A stretch of 32,409 nt of DNA from a virus. A program made the position numbers and the translations under genes. Positions 15,585-28,298 of this stretch are shown here, piece after piece. The stretch lies in IMG/VR virus record IMGVR_UViG_3300038825_001024, positions 1 to 32,409 of that record; one strand, written 5' to 3'. Numbering within the stretch: position 1 is the stretch's first letter; every line of letters begins with the position of its first letter. The notes under the pieces are model-generated. The model was not told the origin of the DNA and ran no database searches. It saw nothing but the letters and a program-made list of their open reading frames with translations.

Positions 15585-15606
15585 AAAAAAACCGCCAAGA
15601 GGCGGT
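15585..15606 (-). terminator. Terminator abutting the endolysin start codon
   Basis: On the minus strand ACCGCC-TCTT-GGCGGT (15591-15606) runs into six T's (15585-15590), and the next base begins the endolysin ATG. It has the position of the terminator that in lambda-like phages stops the late leader RNA until Q antiterminates. Because it covers the place where a ribosome site should be, it may also limit endolysin translation. Confidence 0.88.
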
Positions 15607-15784
15607 CCTATAGGGTCAGGTGTTGCAATTATGGATACTTATACCCCCGTTTGGGCGACCGCACAAGACTTTTTTGACGTATATAGAACGTATATAAAAA
15701 CTTTTGTTATATATTTTTGCTCAATAAATTCATGGGGTTAGAGAACGGTTCGATTCCCATGCGTCCTCCGCACCCTTTCTCATT

Positions 15785-15812
15785 TTACCCCCCCTACCCT
15801 ATCGCGTATTAA
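15785..15812. repeat. 28-bp direct repeat, copy 1
   Basis: Begins TTACCCCCCC and ends ATCGCGTATTAA. It matches the copy at 15991-16018 at 26 of 28 positions, 206 bases away. The minus-strand reading starts TTAATACGCGAT. Conservation of a long non-coding unit suggests a protein-binding or promoter function. Confidence 0.85.
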
Positions 15813-15990: not shown

Positions 15991-16018
15991 TTACCCCCCC
16001 TACCTAATCGCGTATTAA
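15991..16018. repeat. 28-bp direct repeat, copy 2
   Basis: Second copy of the unit at 15785-15812, with two substitutions in its middle (TACCTAATCGCG for TACCCTATCGCG). It ends 53 bases before the -35 box of the plus-strand promoter. Confidence 0.85.
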
Positions 16019-16025
16019 GTTGCAC

Positions 16026-16056
16026 TGCAATTGCATAACTATCCTCTGCAATTGCA
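16026..16056. promoter_or_regulatory. Two TGCAATTGCA palindromes, two helical turns apart
   Basis: Perfect 10-bp palindromes at 16026-16035 and 16047-16056, each within a 13-bp direct repeat CTGCAATTGCATA. Their centres are 21 bp apart and lie roughly 55 and 76 bases before the expected start point of the promoter at 16072. Spacing on one helix face suggests cooperative binding by an activator or repressor. Confidence 0.65.
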
Positions 16057-16071
16057 TATCTAAAATAATAC

Positions 16072-16100
16072 TTGACATGTGACTAGTCACAGCCTATAAT
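16072..16100 (+). promoter_or_regulatory. Consensus sigma-70 promoter with operator in the spacer
   Basis: TTGACA (16072-16077), a 17-bp spacer, and TATAAT (16095-16100): perfect consensus at both hexamers. The spacer contains the perfect 14-bp palindrome TGTGACTAGTCACA (16078-16091), exactly where a repressor dimer would block polymerase. It drives the three small plus-strand genes that follow. Such strength in a temperate phage almost requires a repressor. Confidence 0.9.
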
Positions 16101-16159: not shown

Positions 16160-16354
16160 ATGTCCTTTGTTATTGAGTACAAAGTCGAGCAGCGTAGATC
16201 GCCCCTTATTGATGGCAAAAAGTCCACTGATTTTAGAGTGGCCTTGTATGTAAATGGAAAGTGGGAAAACGAATGGGGCAATCTATGGAGCAAGAGCAAA
16301 GCCGATGGGATCGCTAAACGTTTAAACACGAACATTAAAAAGGGGTTTTTATGA
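16160..16354 (+). CDS. Small protein from the 16.07-kb promoter
   Basis: A 64-residue basic protein starting at ATG 16160 with AGGAGAG about 9 bases upstream. It opens MSFVIEYKVEQRRSPLIDGK and continues with DFRVALYVNGKWENEWGNLW and a Lys-rich end, predicted as a small beta sheet with a C-terminal helix. It is the first gene after the strong operator-bearing promoter, about 60 bases from the start point, so it may be made in large amounts when derepressed. The family is not recognised. Convergent orientation against the Q-like gene suggests a regulatory or early function. Confidence 0.75.
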   Translation: MSFVIEYKVEQRRSPLIDGKKSTDFRVALYVNGKWENEWGNLWSKSKADGIAKRLNTNIKKGFL

Positions 16355-16407
16355 ATCGACTTACTAAAATCGATATTGGGAGCAACATTTACCGCGTGAT
16401 TCTGTAA
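16351..16407 (+). CDS. Possible 18-residue coupled peptide
   Basis: ATG 16351 overlaps the stop of the preceding gene by 4 bases (ATGA) and encodes MNRLTKIDIGSNIYRVIL before TAA. It has no ribosome site of its own and would depend on coupling. It may be only a chance frame; I list it because all other gene pairs in this phage use the same overlap. Confidence 0.35.
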   Translation: MNRLTKIDIGSNIYRVIL

Positions 16408-16456: not shown

Positions 16457-16612
16457 ATGAAGACTGACGCAGAACGAAAACGATTAGAGCGTGAACGCAA
16501 ACGAGAGGCAGGGCTTCGGCCTTTTGAGCTTTGGCTAACCGCAGAAGAGCACTTAGCTATCAAGACTTTTTTGATTGAGTTGCGATCTAATACCCCCGCT
16601 CCTCCAACATAA
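16457..16612 (+). CDS. Small Arg-rich helical protein, possible ribbon-helix-helix type
   Basis: A 51-residue protein starting at ATG 16457 with AAGGGG 5' of it. The first 18 residues are highly charged (MKTDAERKRLERERKREAG), followed by LRPFELWLTAEEHLAIKTFLIELR. A beta strand (FELWL) and two helices after a basic tail are what small Arc/MetJ-type or related phage DNA-binding proteins look like, though I cannot prove the fold. Its 3' end overlaps the 3' end of the convergent Q-like gene by 26 bases, so transcripts of the two genes are complementary there. Confidence 0.65.
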   Translation: MKTDAERKRLERERKREAGLRPFELWLTAEEHLAIKTFLIELRSNTPAPPT

Positions 16613-17030
16613 GCACCACCATGTCGAACCCTGCTGCCTTGGCTTGCTTGGCCTTTGTTTCTGACCAATGCAACTCCCTAGCAACAGCTTTGACCGTACC
16701 TCTCAAGTAATACTCTTTCAGTGCGTAGAAGTAATCAGGGTTGACCTTCTTAATCGCAAACATGATCTCGTCCATCGCCGTTGATCGATACACGGGGATG
16801 CGAGCATGAGGTTGCGGTCGCGTTTCTTTAGCATTTACCTTTTGCTTTAACGGGTTTGGCTTGCCTGCAACTGATAGCGCAAAGTTGCCATCCATGATGT
16901 TGACCGCAGCAAAGTCGCCGGTTTTATCCAGCGCGTACTCTCTTGCCCACCGTTCAAGTAGCTCGTCGGCTTTTTTGCGTAACTCTTCAGTCACACTCAG
17001 CCCTATCAATCTGACATTGCAATCGCTCAT
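16587..17030 (-). CDS. Q-like late transcription regulator candidate
   Basis: A 147-residue protein and the last gene of the early operon, the place of gene Q in lambda-like phages. The C-terminal 65 residues read ALKEYYLRGTVKAVARELHW, then SETKAKQAKAAGFDMVVLML, a helix-turn-helix like that in sigma-region-4-type antiterminators and the small RinA/ArpU/Q regulators. The middle is Pro/Lys-rich and linker-like. It would act near the late promoter in the 15.6-16.1 kb region so polymerase passes the terminator at 15585. It overlaps DUF3310 by 44 bases. Alternatives are other small phage HTH regulators. The family call is moderate; the position strengthens it. Confidence 0.6.
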   Translation of the reverse strand: MSDCNVRLIGLSVTEELRKKADELLERWAREYALDKTGDFAAVNIMDGNFALSVAGKPNPLKQKVNAKETRPQPHARIPVYRSTAMDEIMFAIKKVNPDYFYALKEYYLRGTVKAVARELHWSETKAKQAKAAGFDMVVLMLEERGY

Positions 17031-27284: not shown

Positions 27285-28298
27285 TTAATTATCGAAAGAC
27301 TCTAGCGGAGGCCTTTCTTTTGGAATTTCTACTGGTGCTGCGGCAGGAGCTGCGGTAGGTGCTGCAACTGGCGTTACAGTCCCCATCATTGAGGAAGCCT
27401 GAAGCTCTTGCCTTTCTTTCTCTAGCGCTTCAATAAATCCATTGTAGTGGTCATAAACCTTTTGTAGGTTTTCAGCTAGTTGATCTGCTGATTGGCTTGT
27501 ATCTAGGCTTGCAATTGATGATTCTAATAATTTCAATTCTTTTTCACTTACAGCACCAAGAGCGCCACCTGTCTTGCTCGCATCTCTCATTGCCTGCAAT
27601 CGGTCAAAGGCTAGGTTGGATTTAATAGTGTTGATTGTGGCTCTAAGGTTAGCGCCAGGAGTACCAGGTACATTCCCTAAAAGCCCTGAAAGACCTGCGG
27701 TTGTTGGTATCAAGGAGCCTTGATCATTTGCTAGAGTCGTTTGCGCTTGTGTAATAGTGTCTAAAAGAACATCTTTACCATTTATTTGTGCATCTAAAAA
27801 TCTGCCGTATTTAACAGGATCATCAGACATTGATTTCGATCCTGACTTGCCAGTCTTTTTAAAATCAATAACAAACTTAACAAACTCTGGAGTGCCTTCT
27901 TTCAACCCTTGCATCTTTGCAAAATCCATAGCTTCTCTAGTGCTTGTGGTGAATTTCGGAGTTGCTGACTTTGGCGTGTAATTAGGCATTGCTTCAAAAC
28001 CAATGAACTTGCCGGTTCGGTCATACTTGGGTTGACCGTAGGTGCCGTCATTTAACTCAACAGGCTTGTCGTAAATGGGGTTTCCAAACTGCGCCATTTT
28101 CAGTGCGGTATCAGTGTTTAAAAGTTCGTTGCTGCGGTTAGCAATTTGTTTGCCTCGATTATTTAAAAGCTCTGCAATTGCATTGCGCTGCGCCGCCTCA
28201 TTCGCCATTTTCCGGTCTAGCTGGGCTTGTATTTGGTTCTGTCGTACCTGCTCGACGCCAGGTCGATTCGCTACTTTAAAAAAAGTTTCTAGTGCCAT
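27285..28298 (-). CDS. Second ejection-type virion protein
   Basis: A 337-residue, mostly helical protein starting at ATG 28298, which overlaps the previous stop by one base and has GGAGG 7 bases upstream. The N-terminus is Gln/Asn/Ala-rich coil. Residues about 205-290 contain LSGLLGNVPGTPGANLRATI, then LAFDRLQAMRDASKTGGALG, which I associate with phage internal virion or ejection proteins. The C-terminus is Pro/Ala-rich (VAAPTAAPAAAPVEIP). It would be ejected with DNA into the host envelope. Alternatives are other structural roles. Confidence 0.72.
   Translation of the reverse strand: MALETFFKVANRPGVEQVRQNQIQAQLDRKMANEAAQRNAIAELLNNRGKQIANRSNELLNTDTALKMAQFGNPIYDKPVELNDGTYGQPKYDRTGKFIGFEAMPNYTPKSATPKFTTSTREAMDFAKMQGLKEGTPEFVKFVIDFKKTGKSGSKSMSDDPVKYGRFLDAQINGKDVLLDTITQAQTTLANDQGSLIPTTAGLSGLLGNVPGTPGANLRATINTIKSNLAFDRLQAMRDASKTGGALGAVSEKELKLLESSIASLDTSQSADQLAENLQKVYDHYNGFIEALEKERQELQASSMMGTVTPVAAPTAAPAAAPVEIPKERPPLESFDN

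Follow-up and report, generated by a model that had tools for sequence, protein, structure and literature searches.

A consensus promoter with a spacer operator, linked to a small basic protein, marks a candidate acr-aca-like accessory operon of phages

The window, by which we mean the whole 32.4-kb virus record analyzed here (with an integrase-like ORF, an ERF recombinase, a terminase, and a minus-strand late region), carries a short cassette that we read, with a probability of roughly 0.65, as a mobile accessory operon of the acr-aca kind, whose last gene would encode its own repressor and whose cargo would act against host defense. This reading draws on signals in the sequence: the promoter, the palindrome within it, the gene order, a linkage of site and protein recovered from both search directions, the diversity of the cargo, and an AcrIF11-like cargo protein in one lineage. 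The same pair of site and regulator was found in dozens of other phages. Several points count against it: of the cargo families, one alone resembles a known anti-CRISPR, below the cut-off; the 64-aa cargo protein of the window has no assigned function, and its homologs in L002-L006 stand apart from such a promoter and regulator; near-duplicates swell the contig counts; and one contig (L085) has the promoter pattern without the protein. The features of the cassette are listed in Table 1.

Table 1. Coordinates of the cassette and adjacent features in the window
Feature	Position	Strand	Remarks
Cassette segment	16022-16573	+	Missing from close relatives L033, L035, L036, and L038
Upstream palindrome TGCAATTGCA, copy 1	16026-16035		Array element, no tie to operon
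Upstream palindrome TGCAATTGCA, copy 2	16047-16056		21 bp from copy 1
-35 hexamer TTGACA	16072-16077	+	Part of the only 12/12 promoter in the window
Operator TGTGACTAGTCACA, arms GTGAC/GTCAC	16078-16091	+	Fills the 17-bp spacer; starts at the base after TTGACA
-10 hexamer TATAAT	16095-16100	+	Spacer 17
Cargo gene, 64-aa orphan, candidate anti-defense	16160-16354	+	Good ribosome-binding site
Stub of second cargo gene, 18 codons (MNRLTKIDIGSNIYRVIL)	16351-16407	+	Start resembles 58-aa gene of L002-L004
51-aa basic protein, putative autorepressor	16457-16612	+	phrog_536, E=2.5e-4; linkage with operator
Q-like antiterminator gene	16587-17030	-	phrog_79, E=8e-6; convergent with 51-aa gene, 26-bp overlap

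A consensus promoter with an operator in its spacer

The window contains one perfect-consensus sigma-70 promoter (TTGACA-17-TATAAT, 12/12), against an expectation of 0.01 per window in simulations that keep the dinucleotide content. Perfect 14-bp palindromes number two, with about two expected by chance, and one of them, the operator, lies exactly in the promoter spacer. A first-pass annotation of this DNA had described the promoter, the operator (center 16084.5), and two upstream palindromes (centers 16030.5 and 16051.5), and all of these elements were recovered at 16026-16100; the spacings of 21 and 33 bp correspond to about 2.0 and 3.1 helical turns, in agreement with that description. The operator arms are identical in 21 non-redundant promoters, a set in which they are partly fixed by the search pattern, and in all 16 testable loci of a protein-first search (see below), which was not selected on DNA and has the same arms. 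The two central bases vary among the 21 promoters (TA, CG, AT, AG, CT) and are thus probably not read, and the base 5' of the left arm is T in 95% of them. A CRP site (TGTGA-N6-TCACA) was ruled out, since the gap between these half-sites is 4 bp rather than 6 in the window and in all relatives, and Rfam gave no RNA element.

Presence and absence of the cassette among relatives

Four close relatives with terminases 98-100% identical to that of the window are colinear with it and lack the ~550 bp that hold the cassette; one of them, L033, is 95% identical to the window left of the gap and 92.5% identical right of it. At greater distance, L040 (terminase 93%) retains the promoter and the 51-aa gene and has different cargo (173 aa and 60 aa), and L042, L043, and L047 (85-86%) have a 51-aa homolog and other cargo behind the same promoter layout, with CGTGACCGGTCACA as the spacer palindrome. 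The operator is present in every one of these four relatives with the 51-aa gene and absent from all seven without it (L033, L035, L036, L038, L041, L045, and L046). The 64-aa gene reappears in other viral contigs amid different neighbor genes: it has five homologs in IMG/VR at 79-84% identity, and those in L002-L006 have neither this promoter nor the regulator. In L002-L004 the homolog is followed by a 58-aa gene, of which the window keeps a cut-down stub. Judged by these comparisons, the cassette is an add-on, and its presence and absence, together with the exchange of cargo, is the pattern of reassorting accessory genes.

The two upstream palindromes behave differently from the operator. 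The window holds a third TGCAATTGCA at 28173, and the number of copies by itself is unremarkable, since five matches with at most one mismatch compare with 2.5 expected. The pair at 21 bp is remarkable because L040 preserves both copies and their spacing, even though the 11 bp between them have diverged. In both L040 and L041 the palindromes belong to an array of GCAAYTGC elements spaced 21 bp and in some cases 14 bp apart. L041, which may be a deletion product, has this array without promoter or cassette; conversely, the array is missing from L042, L043, L047, and the operons of unrelated phages, all of which have the promoter. We therefore set the upstream palindromes aside as a component of the conserved promoter, and the earlier proposal that a second protein bound there helps to control it was not supported, because such sites are lacking from most operons with the promoter. 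The palindromes may still be a binding site of some kind, but outside the conserved operon unit.

Linkage of the operator to a small basic protein

The association between the operator and the 51-aa protein family was examined from both directions. In the protein-first search, an alignment of seven small proteins was run against IMG/VR and gave 17 loci; one (L070) fell outside the test because its contig ends before the expected position of the site, and the remaining 16 of 16 have GTGACNNGTCAC 314-790 bp upstream, in a promoter spacer with a CTTG-type -35, where chance would supply ~0.001 per locus (ten fixed bases in 1.3 kb). In the DNA-first search, the pattern CTTGN4GTGACNNGTCACN3-4TATNNT was run against IMG/VR, and a regulator profile was then applied to the 36 matching contigs. 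Four of these run out less than about 230 bp from the site and were not part of the test; 30 of the 32 testable contigs encode the regulator 233-1286 bp downstream on the same strand (E <= 1e-17). The exceptions are L085, which has no such protein, and L087, in which the relative found about 900 bp away is divergent and ribbon-helix-helix-like. A pattern of the same make-up but with a permuted palindrome matched two IMG/VR contigs, neither with the protein. The two directions overlap in contigs and include many near-duplicates; 21 promoters are left at <85% identity, which we guess to represent 10-15 independent lineages. The 14-mer TGTGACTAGTCACA alone is not diagnostic, because several of its 26 matching viral contigs are clearly unrelated (coding sequence, inovirus double sites).

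The pair occurs in phages of Acinetobacter, of Propionivibrio, and of unassigned aquatic hosts. The same pattern in GTDB genomes gave seven loci, of which two have the regulator and two others (L103 and L104, from Parasulfuritortus and Gallionellaceae) encode a ~395-aa protein whose N-terminus is the regulator domain and whose start lies 50-60 bp behind the promoter. Going by these two loci, which are not phage-like, the regulator domain is also employed outside phage cassettes. A whole-genome search of ~700 bacterial genomes found the strong form only in an already known genome, all other matches having E > 1e-7, and a scan of genome contigs found no relatives of the Acinetobacter 60-aa protein.

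The first-pass annotation had assigned the spacer site to a dedicated repressor distinct from the CI/Cro type, perhaps encoded by the host. The first part is supported: phage operons that are otherwise unrelated keep the palindrome within their promoters. The second is not, because the site is accompanied, whichever way the search is run, by a conserved small basic protein encoded in its own transcription unit; on this reading, the guess of a host regulator would give way to a two-component system of site and operon protein. It could still be that the operator is bound by another regulator, a host protein or a phage CI/Cro, and that the 51-aa protein is itself cargo: binding by this protein is something we infer, and TGTGACTAGTCACA also lies in contexts without it, such as inovirus genes beside Zot. 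We consider this quite improbable given a two-way linkage that spans phages of different hosts, a 51-aa family that stays constant while all other cargo changes, and a regulator N-terminal domain placed directly behind the operator in L103 and L104. The 51-aa protein is thus, in our reading, very probably the autorepressor of the operon promoter.

Linkage shows just that site and protein co-occur, and a protein bound in the spacer could also be an activator. MerR-type activators, too, bind in promoter spacers. Their promoters, however, have spacers of 19-20 bp. In the operons described here, 16-17 bp separate hexamers that are close to consensus (12/12 in the window), and a consensus promoter requires no activator, which leaves this explanation with hardly any probability.

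Several loci show other arrangements. L077 (4638-5215) and L086 (4352-4929) have the promoter-operator twice per cassette and only one regulator gene, which comes last. Two GTGACTAGTCAC sites each are found in L007 (5572-5640), L013 (2160-2222), and L032 (1930-1980); in L007 and L013, which are inovirus-like, the sites lie behind a Zot-like gene and precede a 99-aa gene with a AERKRRSRQNQRQAG-like stretch, and this gene and its double sites may be a remote offshoot of the regulator-operator pair. In a bacterial genome, L118 (1498-1900) encodes a 113-aa regulator relative, with GTGACATGTCAC 25 bp behind the gene and before the next one.

The predicted regulator

The short form of the regulator is 44-66 aa long, and R7, K8, R12, and G19 (window numbering) are invariant over 18 diverse members. 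An AlphaFold2 model of the 51-aa protein (pLDDT 83) has a helix at residues 4-17, an extended segment, and a second helix at 29-45. Since all four invariant residues fall within or beside the first helix, and the operator arms likewise do not vary, this basic helix is the likely reader of the arms, and the extended segments would pair in a dimer. In ribbon-helix-helix proteins (MetJ/Arc) the order is strand and then two helices; in the model it is helix, extended segment, helix. The longer relatives L012, L018, and L087 could accommodate a second helix at the C-terminus.

The 51-aa protein weakly matches phrog_536, annotated as "transcriptional regulator," and matches of the regulators to phrog_536, UrfF, KORA, and MazE-like models are likewise weak (E 4e-5 to 1e-2) and mostly to DNA-binding or antitoxin families, which suggests that the family binds DNA. 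Every Pfam or NCBIfam match to a regulator family is under its curated cut-off, no helix-turn-helix (HTH) model matched, no solved structure resembles the regulator by sequence or fold, and no relatives of the 64-aa and 51-aa proteins were found in named phages.

A couple of small genes, the last of which encodes the presumed DNA-binding protein, could also be a type II toxin-antitoxin pair, in which the 64-aa protein would be the toxin and the 51-aa protein the antitoxin and autorepressor; models of MazE-like and VapB-like antitoxins show weak similarity to some regulators. An antitoxin would be expected to stay with its toxin, yet there is no conserved partner among ~35 unrelated families in operons of one to four genes, and L077 and L086 place the operator promoter twice before one regulator. 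We regard such a pair as highly improbable.

Diversity of the cargo genes

Between promoter and regulator, the collected operons contain 79 ORFs, of which a few are overlapping frames and probably spurious, in about 35 families (36 BLAST clusters), with 1-4 genes per operon. Most encode 58-173 aa, and nearly all families have no match. The regulator is the one conserved gene, and all other operon content changes. Among those cargo proteins that were compared with NCBIfam, one matched a named anti-defense family, AcrIF11_anti (NF052490): the 138-aa product of the first gene of operons in Acinetobacter phages and phage-plasmids (E=9.5e-8, 33 bits against a cut-off of 50); the match of this protein to the AcrF11 structure (PDB 6kyf) is weak (E=0.78). 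As an ADP-ribosyltransferase, AcrIF11 acts as an inhibitor of type I-F CRISPR-Cas (PMC12421852). AcrF11 has been reported in Acinetobacter baumannii prophages (PMC11035748), which may or may not be the 138-aa protein. This likeness belongs to the Acinetobacter operons; in the window, no known anti-CRISPR was recognized.

The 64-aa cargo protein of the window has no match in Pfam, PHROG, or NCBIfam. Its model (pLDDT 82) is strand-strand-strand-helix; a likeness to the double-stranded-RNA-binding domain was set aside, with weak matches only (best E=0.35). We regard it as a candidate anti-defense protein. The same small repressor could instead govern a moron cassette whose cargo serves lysogenic conversion, superinfection exclusion, or host takeover. 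In favor of this, the 64-aa protein and nearly all of the cargo families are without a match, and a study that predicts anti-defense genes in general from shared regulatory sequences left most of them still to be tested (PMC11065993). On the other hand, no cargo was collected more often than the AcrIF11 relative, and each point of the layout has its counterpart in acr-aca operons (PMC9410906), so we hold cargo of another kind to be unlikely.

Comparison with known systems

The operon design is the known acr-aca design. In acr-aca operons, inverted repeats located in the core promoter are the sites through which Aca proteins act as repressors (PMC9410906), and the operons studied here share with those of Aca1-Aca10 a strong near-consensus promoter, an inverted repeat within it, one to several small cargo genes, a small predicted DNA-binding protein encoded last in the same orientation, and, in one lineage, AcrIF11-like cargo. 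They differ in the regulator: the ten Aca families have a predicted HTH (PMC9410906), whereas none is recognizable here. All 12 Aca families used in a further study have HTH domains, the HTH-less Aca13 having been left out (PMC9765179); Aca11-13 come from Streptococcus elements (PMC8934645). Archaeal-virus anti-defense genes with Aca8 (PMC11065993) are likewise diverse small genes united by a promoter-operator and a regulator, but with an archaeal promoter, a winged-HTH regulator, and mostly single genes rather than a regulator-last operon. Phage morons resemble the cassette in having their own sigma-70 promoter, an orientation opposite to that of their neighbors, and presence or absence between close relatives, whereas the cassette brings its own conserved regulator, a presumed autorepressor.

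A text search of the literature for GTGACTAGTCAC found no paper. Provisionally, neither the regulator family nor its operator seems to have been described, the published Aca families being set apart here by their descriptions rather than by sequences or operator logos. We put forward tentatively, at somewhat less than even odds, that they form a new Aca class of 44-66-aa non-HTH proteins, whose basic N-terminal helix would read GTGAC half-sites and autoregulate widespread, undescribed anti-defense operons of proteobacterial phages and mobile elements. If so, the ~29-bp promoter-operator would serve as a DNA-only search tag for new anti-defense genes and, together with the ~50-aa regulator, as a guilt-by-association marker for operons that HTH-based Aca tools miss by design; the ~35 cargo families, nearly all undescribed, would become candidates for anti-defense screening, and the predicted repressor could turn such cargo genes off.

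Proposed mode of action

On entry into a new cell, where the repressor is absent, the consensus promoter would fire at once and give a burst of cargo, here the 64-aa protein, which is probably an inhibitor of host defense. As the last gene is expressed, the 51-aa basic protein would accumulate, dimerize, and bind GTGAC-NN-GTCAC between -35 and -10, blocking RNA polymerase and shutting the operon down. Occlusion of the spacer would lead to a low steady state with low expression in the lysogen, and would limit antisense read-through into the Q gene. Autoregulation of this kind predicts low, not zero, expression in the lysogen.

Genomic neighborhood of the cassette

The left flank of the cassette is an endolysin gene (M15 peptidase) and its right flank the Q-like gene, both on the strand opposite to the cassette, which places it between the late control region and Q. 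No plus-strand terminator was seen from 16612 to about 17540, nor one dedicated to the cassette, and therefore transcription left unrepressed would continue through Q in antisense, which gives the window one more reason to keep the operon repressed. On the minus strand, the late control region (15585-15666) comprises a candidate promoter, TTGTGC-17-TATAAG (15666-15638), and then a strong terminator (15609-15585; -13.5 kcal/mol, z -2.9) directly before the endolysin start, and resembles lambda PR'/tR' downstream of Q. A tRNA-like fragment, GGTTCGATTCCCATGCGTCCTCCGCACC, at 15726-15772 is kept in relatives, although ARAGORN calls no intact tRNA near 15740. A 28-bp direct repeat at the cassette edge, TTACCCCCCCTACCYWATCGCGTATTAA, occurs at 15785-15812 and again at 15991-16018, with two to three copies in relatives, and is possibly a recombination spot.
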